Part shown: positions 1,295 through 23,553 of the stretch, one piece after another | Position numbering within the stretch: the first letter of the stretch is position 1 | Layout of the letters: each line of letters opens with the position of its first letter | DNA from: a virus | Length of the DNA stretch: 24,447 nucleotides | IMG/VR virus record: IMGVR_UViG_3300010885_030499 | Span: 1 to 24,447 of that record | Reading direction: 5' to 3' (one strand) | Made by a program: the position numbers and the translations under genes | Notes under the pieces: generated by a model | What the model was told of the DNA's origin: nothing | Database searches by the model: none | What the model saw: the letters and a program-made list of their open reading frames with translations, nothing else

Positions 1295-1942
1295 ATGTCT
1301 GATGATGAAAGAAAGGAAAAGAAAAGATTGTATGATAAGGAGTATAGAAAGAAAAATAAAGAAAAGTTAAATAAGCTAAAGAGAAGGTGGGCTATTGAAA
1401 ATCCCGATAGAGTTAAAGAGAGTAGATTGAAAGGTATAGATGCTAAAAAAGTAACTGACCGGAAATATGCTACTGAAAATGTTGAGAAGTTAAATGAGAT
1501 AAAAAGGAAATGGGCTAAAAATAATCCAGATAAAGTAAAAGCATCAAGTCTGAAATACCATAAGAGTAAAATGTCAAATGATAAACTTTATAGGCTTAAA
1601 CATATAATAAGTAATATTATTAGAGATGCAATAAAAAGAAAAGGATATTCGAAGAGGTATAAAAGTGCTGATATATTAGGATGCACTATAAGTGAGTTTA
1701 AGATATATCTAGAGTCTAAATTTGAGGACTGGATGACATGGGAAAATTATGGAAATCCATTAGACGGTATTTATGAAGTAAATAAGACTTGGGATATTGA
1801 TCATATCATACCACTAAATAACGCACTAACAGAGGAGGATATTATTAAGTTAAGTAACTATACAAATTTACAACCATTGTGTAGCTATTACAATAGATTT
1901 ATTAAAAAAGATAGAATTTGTATAGATGAAAAAGACAATTAA
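1295..1942 (+). CDS. HNH endonuclease, probably a free-standing homing endonuclease
   Basis: The C-terminal third of this 215-aa protein is an HNH nuclease fold: WDIDHIIPL with D169-H170, N191 in the NLQPLC segment and N200 in the last helix (the HNN variant). The DNA-binding N-terminus has two degenerate lysine-rich repeats at about residues 12-45 and 56-85, each with KLN(K/E)(L/I)KR(R/K)WA followed by (E/N)NPD(R/K)VK. Such repeats are common in phage HNH proteins. It lies between a HAD gene and ClpS with no visible interrupted gene or intron, so it looks like a free-standing mobile endonuclease. It overlaps the next gene by 17 nt in another frame. It could instead act as a nicking enzyme in DNA metabolism or packaging, but the repeats favour the mobile type. 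Confidence 0.88.
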   Translation: MSDDERKEKKRLYDKEYRKKNKEKLNKLKRRWAIENPDRVKESRLKGIDAKKVTDRKYATENVEKLNEIKRKWAKNNPDKVKASSLKYHKSKMSNDKLYRLKHIISNIIRDAIKRKGYSKRYKSADILGCTISEFKIYLESKFEDWMTWENYGNPLDGIYEVNKTWDIDHIIPLNNALTEEDIIKLSNYTNLQPLCSYYNRFIKKDRICIDEKDN

Positions 1943-2129
1943 GGCTAGCATAAAAATAAATGAAGATAACTCAATTAATTTATCTCTGATATGTAGAGAG
2001 TGTGGATCAACAATTGAAATCAACAATGAATCATTAGTATGTGAGAGCGATTGTCAACATGATAGTACACCTATTAGCGAAATTATAAACATATTCGATA
2101 AATCAAGAATCACTGAAAATAATATATAG
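1926..2129 (+). CDS. Small predicted zinc-binding protein
   Basis: This 67-aa protein of no family I recognise has four cysteines spaced like a zinc ribbon: C23-x2-C26 (CREC) and C39-x3-C43 (CESDC), followed by H45. The start ATG lies inside the end of the HNH gene (17-nt overlap), and the stop comes three bases before the ClpS start. It therefore sits in a tight plus-strand run HNH, zinc protein, ClpS. Small phage zinc-ribbon proteins often bind nucleic acid or host proteins, but nothing here points to a target. Confidence 0.65.
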   Translation: MKKTIKASIKINEDNSINLSLICRECGSTIEINNESLVCESDCQHDSTPISEIINIFDKSRITENNI

Positions 2130-2132
2130 AAA

Positions 2133-2414
2133 ATGGCAACAATTACTAAAGAACAAACATCAACGAAATTAAAAGAATTATTAAGTGAACCATATATTCT
2201 ATGGCTACATAACGATGACTATAATTCATTTGATTGGGTTATTCAATGTCTAATGAAAATATGCGGACATGAGCAAAGTCAGGCGGAGCAATGCGCACAT
2301 CTCGTTCACTTTACAGGTAAATGTGATGTGAAGAGAGGGGATAAGGAGAAAATTACAGAAATGTATAATAAACTAAAAGCCGCCAGACTAACAGTAACTA
2401 TGGATGTTGCTTAA
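2133..2414 (+). CDS. clpS: ClpS-like N-degron adaptor for the Clp protease
   Basis: This 93-aa protein is close to the usual ClpS length and aligns along its whole core. LHNDDYNSFDWVIQCLMKIC (residues 25-44) carries the N-degron pocket residues N27 and D28, and H59 (LVHFTGKC) corresponds to the pocket histidine H66 of E. coli ClpS. The EQAEQCAHLVH-type helix and the GKCDVK turn resemble cellular Bacteroidota ClpS. The position of the E. coli gatekeeper M40 is F33 here. ClpS docks on the ClpA/ClpC N-domain and delivers proteins with destabilising N-termini. A phage copy could redirect the host N-end rule, or bind and protect substrates. It ends 2 nt before a bidirectional terminator. The upstream sequence AATAATATATAG may be a weak late promoter. 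Family assignment is firm; the purpose is inference. Confidence 0.9.
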   Translation: MATITKEQTSTKLKELLSEPYILWLHNDDYNSFDWVIQCLMKICGHEQSQAEQCAHLVHFTGKCDVKRGDKEKITEMYNKLKAARLTVTMDVA

Positions 2415-2449: not shown

Positions 2450-2896
2450 TAACCTAAACCAATTAAAGTCTTTCAATAATTGTTCTAACCCCTCTATTGA
2501 ATCACATTTAAAAAAGATATCTTCCTCTTCGGAGCCTGGTACAAATTGGGTCAAGCTATAATTATCCTCAATATAGGCACCAACAGTAACAAAGAACCAG
2601 TCATCTATTATCTTTACAATAGATAAGTATATGTTTGGTTTACTAGACTTTATTTCTATAAAATGTTTATCAGTTTGTCCTATCGGGCAAACTATATGTT
2701 TCCTAACGTTTAGTGGTGTGTACTTTTTAATAATATCTAATTCCTTTCGAGTGAAATCCGCCCATATCTTACTTATTGTTTCTAGTCTTGCCGGTTCATC
2801 TTTATATAGGTAAATACCAATCACGCTTAAATCGTCCTCATCTATCTCCTTATATAGTTTCTCAGTAGATTCATTAAACTTCCTTATATGTTTCAT
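2447..2896 (-). CDS. Putative capsid-targeted late protein, member of the three-paralog CD(Q/S)-GL family
   Basis: This 149-aa protein begins MKHIRKFNE|S, the N-terminal signature shared by nine proteins here and resembling the T4 capsid-targeting sequence. The bar marks the predicted prohead-protease cut. Next comes LYKEIDEDDL (14-23), then a mixed alpha/beta domain ending in DDWFFV (98-103) and FFKCDSIEGLEQLL (128-141). The same order of elements appears in the genes at 19193 and 21180, so the three are paralogs. No catalytic residues are evident. It is led by a strong late-promoter-like motif three bases from the ATG, and that motif overlaps the terminase stop. If the signal reading is right, this is a head-internal protein; otherwise it is an unknown late protein. 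Confidence 0.85.
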   Translation of the reverse strand: MKHIRKFNESTEKLYKEIDEDDLSVIGIYLYKDEPARLETISKIWADFTRKELDIIKKYTPLNVRKHIVCPIGQTDKHFIEIKSSKPNIYLSIVKIIDDWFFVTVGAYIEDNYSLTQFVPGSEEEDIFFKCDSIEGLEQLLKDFNWFRL

Positions 2897-2897
2897 A

Positions 2898-2913
2898 AAC
2901 TATATATTAAATT
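2898..2913 (-). promoter_or_regulatory. Late-promoter-like motif for the gene at 2447-2896
   Basis: On the minus strand this reads AATTTAATATATAGTT and is followed at once by the ATG at 2896. It overlaps the stop codon of the terminase gene upstream. Confidence 0.5.
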
Positions 2914-6962: not shown

Positions 6963-7180
6963 TTGTAATATTTTTTTATATTAATAGCTATTCTATGAGG
7001 CATTCCATCAAATCTACTACCTTCATATGTCTTATCTGTCCAGGATACACCACCAGATAATTCCTCATCAAATGATTTACACTTAGGACATTGTTTTGGT
7101 CTTTCTTCACCTTCTTCGATATCAACATCGAAATAACATTTACACCAAAGGTTCTTACATATTAAATTTAAAACTGCCAT
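6959..7180 (-). CDS. Small zinc-ribbon protein
   Basis: This 73-aa protein has cysteines C8, C13 and C15 at the N-terminus and C31-x2-C34 (CPKC), the pattern of a small zinc ribbon or rubredoxin-like knuckle, with an acidic linker between them. It has no further domain and a basic C-terminus (INIKKYYK). It is the first gene of a two-gene unit with the HAD-like protein (ATGA overlap), suggesting a joint role. It has one of the best late-promoter-like motifs, two bases before the ATG. Confidence 0.75.
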   Translation of the reverse strand: MAVLNLICKNLWCKCYFDVDIEEGEERPKQCPKCKSFDEELSGGVSWTDKTYEGSRFDGMPHRIAINIKKYYK

Positions 7181-7182
7181 AA

Positions 7183-7197
7183 AGTATATATTAAAAA
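7183..7197 (-). promoter_or_regulatory. Late-promoter-like motif (consensus copy)
   Basis: The minus strand reads TTTTTAATATATACT, the exact consensus of this window, ending two bases before the ATG at 7180. A leader this short implies a nearly leaderless transcript. Confidence 0.55.
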
Positions 7198-12958: not shown

Positions 12959-12972
12959 TTTTAATATATACT
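12959..12972 (+). promoter_or_regulatory. Late-promoter-like motif for the coiled-coil gene
   Basis: TTTTAATATATACT begins 2 nt after the terminator T-run and ends 2 nt before the ATG at 12975. If it is a -10-type element, the transcript starts at or just past the start codon. Confidence 0.55.
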
Positions 12973-12974
12973 GT

Positions 12975-13538
12975 ATGATTAAGAAGTATAAGGAATTTAG
13001 AGAAGCTTTCAACATTTATCAAACTGATGAACCAGAGATTGCTGCTGATAAGAATCAATCTAATGATGCTGAGAAAGATATTAAGGAGTTTTTAACCAAA
13101 AAGGTTACCATAGATAATATCTATAATACATATAAAGATGAGAAGGATTTAATATCTAAACTATTTGCACAAAAGTTTATTGAGGCTAATACGTCGGATA
13201 AGAAAAGAATTAAGTTTAACAATCCACTAATAGCTCTATACGCAATGGCAGCGGATAAAAAAAGAGAGCTAAAGTCGCTACAAGATGACTTACAGACTAA
13301 GACAGATACATTAAGCAATGTGAAATCTAGTATGAGTGATAATCCTGATAATAAGGATTCATTGACTAATGATATAAACTATAATCAGGATAAGATAACA
13401 GAACTAAATGATAAGATAAAAAAACTAAACACAGAGATTATGACACTTAGCAGAAATGCTGATCAAAAACTCAAACAAATGAAAGCAGATATACTCAACA
13501 ATAAAAAACGATTGGATTATTTCATAAAGAATAAATAA
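12975..13538 (+). CDS. Putative capsid-targeted coiled-coil protein
   Basis: This 187-aa protein starts at the ATG at 12975. An upstream in-frame ATG at 12906 is rejected because it would lie inside the preceding gene and terminator, and because the promoter motif ends at 12972. From 12975 the protein begins MIKKYKEFRE|A, a very close match to the T4 targeting sequence. The middle is helical, and residues about 95-180 form a long coiled coil (ELKSLQDDLQTKTDTLSNV, KITELNDKIKKLNTEIMTL), K-rich toward the end. Composition and position directly before the sheath gene would suit a prohead core or internal protein. There is no enzymatic motif. Confidence 0.85.
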   Translation: MIKKYKEFREAFNIYQTDEPEIAADKNQSNDAEKDIKEFLTKKVTIDNIYNTYKDEKDLISKLFAQKFIEANTSDKKRIKFNNPLIALYAMAADKKRELKSLQDDLQTKTDTLSNVKSSMSDNPDNKDSLTNDINYNQDKITELNDKIKKLNTEIMTLSRNADQKLKQMKADILNNKKRLDYFIKNK

Positions 13539-20501: not shown

Positions 20502-21116
20502 ATGCCATTACCGCACTTCACACAATTATTAATGACAGGTAGTCCCGGAGGCCCAGGTACCAAGCCACAAGAACCAGTATATTTAAACCTATTTGAGGTA
20601 ACTTTTATCTTACCTACAATTTTACAGGCACAAGGTAGAGACCCAATGTTATTATTAGAACAAGCAACTAACGTTACTTTAGATCTAACTAAGGACATTG
20701 AGGTTAAGACACAAAACTTCAAATACTCAAGCAGAGCATTCGTAACTATGCCAAGTTCAACACACGTTGAATTTGATATTAAGTTCAATGTGAATGTTAA
20801 TGAGCATGGATCTATGGAAACATGGAATACTCTTAAAGCATGGTACGACTTAGTATGGAACTCACAAAATGGTTCACTACATTATAAGAGTGATATCATC
20901 GGAACTATCATTGTTAACCAACATGACAAGAAGGGGGTTATTCTAAGAAGAGTAACATTCCAAAACGTTCAAATGAAAGGTGTTGATTCAGCAGCTTTAG
21001 AATGGAGTTCAAGTGAAATATGGGGTGCCGCTGCTAAATTTGTAGCAGATTACTGGATTGATGAATACATCGATGGAAACTTTACGATTCAACCGCCATT
21101 GGTTCAAGGTTATTAA
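20502..21116 (+). CDS. Tail tube protein (T4 gp19-like)
   Basis: This 204-aa protein is recognised as a T4-type tail tube subunit: LFEVTFILPT near the N-terminus, a central beta-rich region (FVTMPSSTHVEFDIKFNVNV), WNTLKAWYDLVWNSQNG, the strand IIGTIIVNQHDKKG and the ending W-SSSEIWGAAAKFVADYW. T4 gp19 is 163 aa, so this copy is about 40 aa longer, mostly at the ends. Hexameric rings of this protein stack to form the inner tube through which DNA passes. It is a single-gene unit with two candidate late promoters and a strong bidirectional terminator, as expected for an abundant structural protein. The N-terminal segment GSPGGPGTKPQEP is glycine/proline-rich. Confidence 0.93.
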   Translation: MPLPHFTQLLMTGSPGGPGTKPQEPVYLNLFEVTFILPTILQAQGRDPMLLLEQATNVTLDLTKDIEVKTQNFKYSSRAFVTMPSSTHVEFDIKFNVNVNEHGSMETWNTLKAWYDLVWNSQNGSLHYKSDIIGTIIVNQHDKKGVILRRVTFQNVQMKGVDSAALEWSSSEIWGAAAKFVADYWIDEYIDGNFTIQPPLVQGY

Positions 21117-21130
21117 TAACAAACATAATA

Positions 21131-21169
21131 AAAAAAAAATTCGGATTTTTCAATCCGAATTTTTTTTTA
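21131..21169. terminator. Bidirectional hairpin terminator
   Basis: AATTCGGATT and AATCCGAATT form the stem around a TTTC loop, with long A and T runs on the two sides. It separates the convergent tail tube gene and the minus-strand gene ending at 21180. Confidence 0.92.
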
Positions 21170-21179
21170 TTATAAATTT

Positions 21180-21587
21180 TTAATATTCATCACTCTCATT
21201 AACACCAACTATGTAATCAATTGTATATTTAATAAACTTTAATAATCCCACAAACTGATCACACATATAGAATTTTACAGCAATATATTTTTCTGGTCGA
21301 CATGTCCATCTTACGAGATACCATTCATCCTTTAACTTAACTACTTGCATAGATGATGCACCCTTACCAACACCAGCTTTACCAAACTGTATTTCAACTA
21401 CTTCAGATATAGTCTGTGGTAATATGACAACTCCCTTAATTGCACGTATTTCTTTCAACTCATCTAAGGTAAAGTCAATACTATCGTCGCACCTATCAAT
21501 GTAATCATCACCAGATACTTCATTAAAGTACTGATTATAGTCTTCAAATATCTTGATATAATTCAAAACAGATTGTTTATTTTTCAT
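21180..21587 (-). CDS. Putative capsid-targeted late protein, CD(Q/S)-GL family
   Basis: This 135-aa protein starts MKNKQSVLNYIKIFE|D, an extended version of the shared signature, followed by YFNEVSGDDY (20-29). The domain that follows ends with DEWYLVRW (87-94) and FYMCDQFVGLLKF (106-118), the hallmark positions of the family also found at 2447 and 19193. No catalytic residues are obvious. It is transcribed divergently from the GIY-YIG endonuclease and has a near-perfect late motif. It is probably a head-internal or injected protein; the function of the domain is unknown. Confidence 0.85.
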   Translation of the reverse strand: MKNKQSVLNYIKIFEDYNQYFNEVSGDDYIDRCDDSIDFTLDELKEIRAIKGVVILPQTISEVVEIQFGKAGVGKGASSMQVVKLKDEWYLVRWTCRPEKYIAVKFYMCDQFVGLLKFIKYTIDYIVGVNESDEY

Positions 21588-21591
21588 ATAA

Positions 21592-21606
21592 TGTATATAT
21601 TAAAAA
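21592..21606 (-). promoter_or_regulatory. Late-promoter-like motif for the gene at 21180-21587
   Basis: The minus strand reads TTTTTAATATATACA, 4 nt before the ATG at 21587, one base off the consensus. Confidence 0.55.
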
Positions 21607-21625
21607 TAATTATAAAATAAATTAG

Positions 21626-21669
21626 GGTAAGCAAGATATATTAATATATAATTAAATATCTTGCTTACC
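21626..21669. repeat. Perfect 14-bp inverted repeat at the start of the GIY-YIG gene
   Basis: GGTAAGCAAGATAT (21626-21639) and ATATCTTGCTTACC (21656-21669) are exact reverse complements around a 16-nt AT spacer. The right arm ends immediately before the ATG at 21670. In RNA this hairpin would bury the ribosome landing region. In DNA it could be an operator for a dimeric protein. Confidence 0.9.
21640..21652 (+). promoter_or_regulatory. Late-promoter-like motif inside the inverted repeat
   Basis: ATTAATATATAAT lies in the spacer of the inverted repeat. A transcript starting here would lack the left arm and could not form the hairpin. Confidence 0.5.
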
Positions 21670-22410
21670 ATGAATGATTACTATGTTTATATATTCCTGA
21701 ATTCACTAAAACCCGGACACTTCAAATATGCGGATGATTTAACTTTCACACATCAACCATTTTATGTCGGAAGAGGAATCAATAATAGAATTGAATGTAG
21801 CGAGAAATATGACAAGAATAATAAGATAAAAACATCAATAATAGATTATATACATAAGAATGATATGAATGTGATATCTCTAAAAATAAAAGAGTGTATG
21901 ACTTTAGAAGAATCTTACGATTATGAGATATATACGATAAATAAAATAGGTAGAATTATACATAAGAGTGGACCTCTATCTAATATAGAGGATGGTGGAA
22001 ACACATTTCAAAATAGAATAAGACCTGTTTTACAATATGATATAAAAGGTAATTTTATTAAGGAATATAAATCTATTGGTGAGGCGGTCGCCAGCACAAA
22101 TATTAAAAATATTAGTTATTGTTGCTCTGGTGTTAGAAATTTAGCAGGTAAATATATATGGCGCTATAAACAAAGCAGTGATTTCCCAACTATTATACCA
22201 GTGGACTTTCTAGATAGAATGGTGCACTATGGTAATTATGAAACTCCGGTGTTACAATTTGATATAAACAAAAACTTTATATGTAGATTTGAGTCAATTA
22301 AGGAGGCATCTGATAGCACCGGGTGCTCGAGTCCAAGAATAGTCGATGTATGTAAAGGTAACAGAAAGCATACCAAAAATTTTATTTGGATTTATGCAGA
22401 TAAAAAATAA
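21670..22410 (+). CDS. GIY-YIG homing endonuclease with NUMOD1-like repeats
   Basis: This 246-aa protein starts at ATG 21670. A TTG at 21661 is in frame but lies inside the right arm of the inverted repeat. The GIY-YIG nuclease domain occupies the first 95 residues or so: YYVYIFLNS (4-12), FYVGRG with NR (31-40) and a later Glu-rich helix (EESYDYEIYTINKIG). Two NUMOD1-like DNA-binding repeats follow, each with VLQ(Y/F)DI..NFI.....SI.EA and ending with (Y/F)IW.Y (about 115-160 and 195-246). It sits 6 nt upstream of the gp47 gene, a typical location for a free-standing mobile endonuclease next to a conserved phage gene. The promoter and hairpin arrangement suggests delayed expression. Confidence 0.92.
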   Translation: MNDYYVYIFLNSLKPGHFKYADDLTFTHQPFYVGRGINNRIECSEKYDKNNKIKTSIIDYIHKNDMNVISLKIKECMTLEESYDYEIYTINKIGRIIHKSGPLSNIEDGGNTFQNRIRPVLQYDIKGNFIKEYKSIGEAVASTNIKNISYCCSGVRNLAGKYIWRYKQSSDFPTIIPVDFLDRMVHYGNYETPVLQFDINKNFICRFESIKEASDSTGCSSPRIVDVCKGNRKHTKNFIWIYADKK

Positions 22411-22416
22411 TTTTCT

Positions 22417-23553
22417 ATGAGTAAAATATTACTAGTTGGTGACGTACACTTGGGAATGTCATACCCAAATAACTATCAAAAATGGCTAAATGTTGCACAG
22501 GAATATTTTAGTAAGTTTCTAATACCACTAATCAAATCTGAATTATGTGAGGATGATATCGTTGTATTTCTAGGTGACTTATTTGACAATCGTAACTTTA
22601 TACCAATTGACATACTTGATTATGCAAGAGTTTTGATGGAAGATATATCAGGTGTCTGTCCAATACATATATTGGTTGGTAATCACGATCAGTTTCACAA
22701 GAGTACTGGGGATGTTAATAGTATTAATATGTTTAAATATATGAGAAATGTTTTTATCTATGAAAAGACAAGACTCATAGAGTACAATAACAATAAAATA
22801 CTTATGATGCCATTCATTGATAAAAAAGTTGAGCAAATTAAGGAATTAAAAAGATACTCAGGGTGTGACTATTTATTCTGTCACTCAGATTTAAATGGCG
22901 CAAAGATGCACTTAACATCAGTAGCAAATAAGAATCTTGACAAAATTGATGTTGATGAATTTTCTGGATATAATGATGTCAGAACTGGACATATTCATAT
23001 ACGACAAAAAATAGGCAATATAACTTTTGTCGGTTCTGTATTCGAAATGGATAGAAATGATATGGATAATACCAAAGGTATATTCATATTAGATACTAAT
23101 ACAGGAGAAGAAACATTTGTTGAGAATAAAATATCACCTAAGTTTAAGAAGGTATATGTTAGAGTTGAAGAAGATATTTCATCACTAGATAAAATATCTA
23201 CCAGAGATTATATTGACTTATATATATCGAACTCACTTCTAATAAATAATAGAAAACTTAGAAGAAAGTTAGAAATAATACTAGAGACAGGTAACTTTGC
23301 ATCGGTTGAATATCTTGATGATATCAATAAGACAGAATCAACTGATGATGATGATATAAAGGAATCTATTGTTAATGAGGCATTGGATAATAATCAAATA
23401 CATGATGTTAAATTGGAGTATAAAGAAGTTATACGTGATTATATATCATCACTAAAATATAGCAGTGATAAAACCAAGTCAGGTATATTAAACGAATACG
23501 ATGAGATTGTAAAGATATATGATGACGGTTATGATAAAAAGAAAAGAAAATAA
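22417..23553 (+). CDS. Mre11/SbcD-type recombination nuclease subunit (T4 gp47-like)
   Basis: This 378-aa protein has all metallophosphoesterase motifs of the Mre11/SbcD family: GDVHLG (D9, H11), GDLFDNR (D54), GNHD (N89, H90, D91), CHSDLNG (H156) and TGHIH (H192, H194). T4 gp47 is 339 aa. It should pair with an SbcC/Rad50-like ATPase (gp46), which is not in this window. In T4 the pair resects DNA ends for recombination-dependent replication and helps degrade host DNA. The C-terminal part is charged (TESTDDDDIKES) and ends in basic residues (DKKKRK). The gene follows the GIY-YIG gene by 6 nt and overlaps the next small gene by one base, so these three are probably one operon. Confidence 0.95.
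   Translation: MSKILLVGDVHLGMSYPNNYQKWLNVAQEYFSKFLIPLIKSELCEDDIVVFLGDLFDNRNFIPIDILDYARVLMEDISGVCPIHILVGNHDQFHKSTGDVNSINMFKYMRNVFIYEKTRLIEYNNNKILMMPFIDKKVEQIKELKRYSGCDYLFCHSDLNGAKMHLTSVANKNLDKIDVDEFSGYNDVRTGHIHIRQKIGNITFVGSVFEMDRNDMDNTKGIFILDTNTGEETFVENKISPKFKKVYVRVEEDISSLDKISTRDYIDLYISNSLLINNRKLRRKLEIILETGNFASVEYLDDINKTESTDDDDIKESIVNEALDNNQIHDVKLEYKEVIRDYISSLKYSSDKTKSGILNEYDEIVKIYDDGYDKKKRK

Follow-up and report, generated by a model that had tools for sequence, protein, structure and literature searches.

The endonuclease gene at positions 21670..22410 (+ strand) of the window, the whole 24,447-nt stretch analyzed here, is immediately preceded by a perfect inverted repeat that carries a late-type promoter core in its loop. 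The best reading of this arrangement, which we consider fairly probable, is a start-site lock similar to that of the I-TevI gene of phage T4, with the gene's own late promoter inside the lock. The left arm, GGTAAGCAAGATAT (21626-21639, + strand), is the exact reverse complement of the right arm, ATATCTTGCTTACC (21656-21669, + strand), which abuts the ATG at 21670; the two 14-bp arms are separated by a 16-nt spacer, ATTAATATATAATTAA (21640-21655, + strand). In the RNA fold, five additional pairs form within the spacer (21641-21645 with 21651-21655, including one bulged base), leaving a 5-nt loop. Within the window there is a single instance of perfect 14-bp arms with at least five G/C and a spacer of no more than 30 nt, and none of 60 dinucleotide shuffles contains one. 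The initial annotation, which described 14-bp perfect arms, a 16-nt spacer with a late-like motif and an ATG adjoining the right arm, is confirmed on the sequence; of the span that it gave, 21626-21672, the left end stands, and the right end moves to 21669, since 21672 takes in the start codon.

The gene encodes a free-standing 246-aa protein of the GIY-YIG/NUMOD1 homing endonuclease type. Comparison with domain profiles identifies NUMOD1 (PF07453) in two stretches, over the cut-off, with an E-value of 1e-14, and LEM-3_GIY-YIG (PF22945) with an E-value of 8.2e-6 and 26.3 bits, just under the cut-off of 27. The closest clade relative of the enzyme (L312, 38% identity) exceeds the latter cut-off, and residues Y5, Y7, Y32, G34, R40, E86 and N105 are invariant in three relatives. 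These results support the assignment of the product to the GIY-YIG type, with predicted NUMOD1 DNA-binding modules, as originally proposed for the gene that follows the dyad. A search of PDB sequences with the enzyme yields no match, and the AlphaFold model has a mean pLDDT of 55.6, with low confidence in the GIY-YIG domain.

The window carries genes of the T4 type, namely, those for the large terminase, tail sheath, tail tube and SbcD/gp47, and contains no Rfam families or tRNAs. The closest named genomes are those of uncultured phages of 642 and 634 kb (62.5% and 61.4%, respectively, for the terminase; the tail tube was compared as well), and by these sequence comparisons the window phage belongs with a clade of 634-642 kb Mahaphage-like phages. 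Al-Shayeb et al. 2020 describe complete genomes of 634, 636, 642 and 735 kb, assign their largest genomes to the Mahaphage clade, and predict that the five above 634 kb infect Bacteroidetes (PMC7162821).

The promoter core in the dyad loop, AATATATA (21643-21650, + strand), recurs across the clade. It is found in 44 of the 52 distinct regions upstream of tail-tube genes, and the remaining eight retain an ATATATA core. Across 226 clade loci (3.5 Mb, 3424 distinct ORFs), the late core lies within 70 nt upstream of 903 ORFs; TTAATATATA alone is present at this distance from 506 of the 3424 ORFs, versus 80 for the reversed string. In the window itself, a TTTAATATATA-like element precedes many of the 27 listed starts, several times at 4 nt before the ATG. 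The box TAnnTTTG, characteristic of Bacteroidota hosts, is commoner where the late motif is absent: it precedes 452 of the 2521 genes without the late motif (190 for the reversed string) versus 94 of the 903 genes with this motif (90 for the reversed string). Two clade loci encode a late sigma factor similar to gp55 (phrog_234, E-values of 8.7e-8 and 1.5e-7). Thus, the late-like motif noted at the outset is, as judged from its distribution, a clade-wide late-type promoter, and we infer that it fires late at the endonuclease gene.

The transcription start can be predicted from the spacing between the motif and the ATG. Among 596 nonredundant motif genes, obtained from the 903 by dropping those with similar promoters or proteins, this distance has two peaks, with 147 genes at exactly 4 nt, 262 at 4-7 nt and 243 at 16-27 nt, and a sharp edge at 4 nt, below which there are only five genes. 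The distance from TAnnTTTG to the ATG likewise peaks at 4 nt (71 genes). In Flavobacterium psychrophilum, the -7 box has the form TAnnTTTG, and the last base of the SM5 variant, TAnnTTGY, is at -5 (PMC9723704), so that a 4-nt gap places +1 at the A of the ATG. The same spacing rule puts the late start of the endonuclease gene at 21655 (+ strand), the fifth base after the motif and one base before the right arm; hence the predicted late mRNA has a 15-nt leader that consists of the right arm plus one base and contains no Shine-Dalgarno sequence. With this predicted start site, the late promoter produces a transcript that omits the left arm, as in control of the I-TevI type.

Late promoters with the start at the AUG predict many leaderless late mRNAs in the clade; for comparison, 5.5% leaderless is reported for F. 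psychrophilum (PMC9723704). The string TAATATATANNNNATG, for which the predicted start is at the AUG, is present in the window at 2120-2135 (+), 2894-2909 (-), 7178-7193 (-) and 12962-12977 (+). It occurs 50, 45 and 20 times in LR756502, LR745206 and LR756504 (control, 0, 2 and 0) and 41, 31, 33 and 15 times in G026, G044, G034 and G018 (control, 1, 1, 1 and 0), and at most twice in the 735-kb phage, Lak-B5, LR756500, PAU, PTm1, MaF61 and T4. Many of the tail-tube leaders (L003-L082) possess a small hairpin just past the predicted start, for example in AATTGTTT...AAACAATT or AACT...AGTT versions; the arms seem, by eye, to covary, and this element might be a 5'-end stabilizer.

Given that the left arm lies upstream of the predicted late start, it is present only in longer, read-through RNA, the existence of which across the dyad we infer. 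The RNA 21610-21710 folds at -23.9 kcal/mol, compared to -11.1 +/- 2.6 for shuffled sequences (z = -4.89; 0 of 200 as stable), whereas the predicted late RNA starting at 21655 folds at -2.2 kcal/mol. The mean unpaired probability of positions -10 to +12 changes accordingly, from 0.26 in the read-through RNA to 0.73 in the predicted late RNA; the AUG itself, which abuts the stem, is predicted to be only half paired in the former. Thus, according to the fold predictions, RNA started upstream contains a stable helix that hides the initiation region, as in the I-TevI type of control. In Flavobacterium, translation is reduced by structure close to the start codon (PMC6847099). On the strength of the modeled folds, the hairpin probably blocks the gene start in any longer transcript.

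The mechanism would then be as follows. A transcript entering from upstream would contain both arms, and the left arm would pair with the 14 nt immediately before the start codon, which would keep ribosomes from loading. RNA polymerase carrying the late sigma factor of the phage would read AATATATA in the loop and start at approximately 21655, past the left arm, and the resulting late mRNA, with its 15-nt leader and no Shine-Dalgarno sequence, would be open and translated. With the longer RNA locked and the late RNA open, production of the endonuclease would depend solely on the gene's own late promoter.

The position of this gene within the clade was assessed among the 596 motif genes using two measures: ddG, the pairing energy between the RNA segments on either side of the predicted start, and a duplex measure, that is, pairing obliged to enclose the motif, with the expectation derived from re-paired left and right halves. 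Base-pair counts across the promoter in minimum-energy folds had been tried and rejected, as they do not separate real from permuted pairs in A+T-rich DNA; the duplex measure is used instead. The endonuclease gene ranks first of 596 by ddG (-20.5), first of 596 by the motif-enclosing duplex (-22.0), and first also by the longest perfect helix. For the class as a whole, eight duplexes at or below -16 are found at the start site versus 2.35 expected. In the shifted controls, there are 10 versus 2.9 expected 15 nt upstream, and one each at +15 and +30, versus 1.9 and 0.5 expected; the excess in ddG is likewise present at the upstream controls at -15, -30 and -60. The class-wide excess of strong pairings thus extends beyond the start site, and because ddG also captures upstream terminator-like hairpins, class-wide statements are based here on the duplex measure.

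Endonuclease genes are enriched among the strongest duplexes. Duplexes at or below -12 are found in four of the 13 endonuclease genes defined at the Pfam level versus 27 of the 560 other genes (p = 0.0036), and in six of the 36 genes of a wider endonuclease set (p = 0.011), or five of 35 without the window gene (p = 0.033); ddG values at or below -8 are found in eight of the 36 versus 46 of the 560 (p = 0.011). The whole duplex distributions of endonuclease and other genes do not differ (p = 0.07 for the 13 and 0.45 for the 36), that is, the enrichment is confined to the tail. Three conserved HNH proteins of 157-162 aa, the 111-115 aa 'NYRYC' proteins and five proteins that looked PhoH-like on visual inspection, which had been drawn in through an intein, were left out of the endonuclease set before counting; five Pfam places matched no called ORF. 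The 'NYRYC' protein is a conserved, zinc-finger-like protein encoded on the - strand beside the tail tube (e.g., L051 and L067), and a long form of 275-282 aa with a homing endonuclease-like extension is present in L021, L243, L026 and L075.

Several other homing endonuclease genes in related phages are preceded by unrelated hairpins of the same design. The second rank by duplex (-20.5) belongs to another GIY-YIG gene (G047, locus L238), with the arms AGCCTTTACTTT and AAAGTAAAGGCT around the motif and the ATG; these arms are unrelated to those in the window, and the right one is within the coding sequence, past the ATG. Seven clade cases, picked from the strongest genes and from relatives of the enzyme, were folded. 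In all of these, namely, G012 (DUF723-type, L021), G036 (L228), G013 (L243), L007, G034 (L344), G044 (HNH, L294) and G047 (L238), the start region is paired in the read-through RNA and open in the predicted late RNA; in L243 and L007, the core is the variant TATATATA. The hairpin switch is not universal among the endonuclease genes of the clade: L312 has the late motif but no hairpin of this kind, and the same is true of a second endonuclease-like gene in the window, an HNH-type ORF at 1295-1942 (+ strand; sub-threshold match to PF01844) whose late motif lies 16 nt upstream of the ATG.

Nor are such hairpins limited to endonucleases. In the MGIFNF genes (L289, L320 and L357), which are not endonuclease genes and for which a scan of L289 detects no Pfam or PHROG match, the start codon and the codons at the beginning of the gene pair with a stretch that lies upstream of the late motif. 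The hairpin is retained in three of three close homologs, with a compensatory change, GGG to GGT in the right (coding) arm and C to A in the left arm; a fourth, distant homolog lacks it. A hairpin was also considered as a feature of the MSDQNK family, which we take to be gp26-like, and was rejected, being clear in only two of the 26 homologs displayed out of the 53 found.

The other hairpins bear on an alternative that we regard as unlikely, namely, that the dyad is a DNA operator, with the endonuclease or another dimeric protein binding both arms so as to repress the promoter between them, in the manner of I-TevI at its own late promoter. The placement of the arms about the promoter is symmetrical, and in T4 I-TevI and, by sequence, in I-TevII and I-TevIII, promoter and operator overlap (PMC2988022); moreover, such a role would be compatible with a lock at the RNA level. 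However, the arms at the other endonuclease genes are unrelated, and the constant feature is pairing across the start site, which in G047 extends into the coding sequence after the ATG. The clade loci also contain no significant copies of the arms: there are no exact 14-mers elsewhere, one match with a single mismatch, and 44 matches with up to two mismatches versus 27 for the reversed string. The I-TevI operator resembles the homing site of its enzyme. Matches to the arm 14-mers in viral contigs (at least 119 stretches) were dismissed as chance, and a partner arm within 60 nt is found in none of the 207 loci examined. Persistence of the dyad in relatives without the endonuclease gene, which the initial annotation named as a sign against its proposal, is not seen, no other clade locus examined having an exact arm.

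Like the genes for T4 I-TevI, I-TevII and I-TevIII, the start-site lock proposed for the window gene combines a strong hairpin in the longer RNA, as recomputed here on T4, with a promoter so placed that the late transcript alone loses the left arm (PMC2988022); I-TevI and I-TevII are, in addition, GIY-YIG endonucleases. Unlike these three, the window gene is free-standing rather than intronic, is unrelated in sequence, uses the motif AATATATA instead of the T4 motif TATAAATA, and has a leader made of the right arm plus one base, with no Shine-Dalgarno sequence. In being free-standing, with the start region predicted to be hidden in longer transcripts, it is similar to T4 segB (GIY-YIG) and Aeh1 mobE (HNH) (PMC2988022, PMC3014915) but belongs to another clade, with another promoter and another host translation system. 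The T4 late genes e and 49 share the placement of the promoter in the upstream side of the hairpin although they are not mobile genes; together with the MGIFNF genes of the clade, they show that the lock is not limited to endonucleases. As a control, 65 hand-picked T4 genes were analyzed, 31 of which have the motif when one mismatch in TATAAATA is allowed. I-TevI, e, 49, I-TevIII, I-TevII and segB, all described as hairpin-controlled in reviews (PMC2988022, PMC3014915), are the six lowest of the 31; soc, a known case, was missed.

Of the original proposal that this phage reached the I-TevI switch with different sequences, the promoter, the placement of the start, the restriction of the hairpin to the longer RNA, the unrelated hairpins at other endonuclease genes and the recovery of the T4 cases speak in favor. 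The associated timing, silenced early and on late, may or may not follow: no early or middle promoter was found nearby, and a terminator-like hairpin lies upstream. This perfect 17-bp hairpin (21131..21168), scored on the - strand, with A/T tracts on both sides, is located between the tail-tube gene and a convergent ORF. The latter encodes a 135-aa protein (21180..21587, - strand), is divergent from the endonuclease gene and has its own late motif (21594-21601, -); the protein matches no family, and the clade loci examined contain no relative. On the + strand, no host-type promoter box was found between the 21131-21168 hairpin and the dyad, so that the lock may be insulation rather than an early/late timer. 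A TTTG...TAGATTTG pair inside the endonuclease ORF, at 22258-22291, could serve the SbcD/gp47-like nuclease gene (22417..23553, + strand; phrog_100, E-value 3.4e-55), which follows the endonuclease gene at a distance of 6 nt, but a single chance match of this kind is not unlikely.

General insulation, with the mobile gene shielded from the transcripts of any neighbor, late ones included, in place of a time switch, is nevertheless quite unlikely in our estimate. It is in line with the late-type motif of the adjoining tail-tube gene, with the lack of a detected early promoter feeding the locus, and with the strong promoter-spanning hairpins at non-endonuclease genes, whereas the strong terminator-like hairpin already sets the tail-tube gene apart and the T4 precedents are timing switches. 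The locus itself is rearranged: in the window (20502-23553), the tail-tube and SbcD genes are co-directional and separated by two ORFs, whereas in the relatives L004, L366 and L367, SbcD is head-to-head with the tail-tube gene, so that the window junction is without a counterpart there. No clean empty-site allele was found among the relatives inspected; the SbcD start codon was located by a simple pattern in only seven of the 23 SbcD loci besides the window. That the dyad is unrelated to expression, being a product of chance, a mobility scar, or a recombination or cruciform site, would fit this rearrangement, in which the junctions could be recent, but is highly improbable given the rarity of such dyads in shuffled sequence and the coincidence, within one base, of the promoter core, the predicted start and the arm boundary.

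The device itself is known from T4, and the version in the window differs in the promoter, the arms, the absence of a Shine-Dalgarno sequence, and a leader that equals one arm plus one base. A literature search, largely without subscription papers, turned up no account of huge phages with promoter hairpins or with leaderless late mRNA, and the leaderless late mRNAs predicted throughout the clade may be more novel than the hairpin. A broader view, plausible if somewhat doubtful, is that in the 634-642 kb Mahaphage-like phages, late transcription starts at or just before the AUG, yielding leaderless or almost leaderless mRNAs from a large share of the late genes, and that mobile endonuclease genes repeatedly evolved unrelated promoter-spanning hairpins, a general 'own start only' lock that would suit a translation system independent of Shine-Dalgarno sequences. 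For a clade known here from metagenomes alone, the analysis provides a testable promoter map, with AATATATA as the late-type and TAnnTTTG as the host-type element, along with the prediction of leaderless mRNAs. If the proposed lock is real, the expression device familiar from T4 endonucleases also operates in phages that are among the largest known, where it uses a different promoter, serves in a different host phylum and dispenses with Shine-Dalgarno pairing; that mobile genes gained it repeatedly would suggest selection for keeping a DNA-cutting enzyme off the transcripts of its neighbors.
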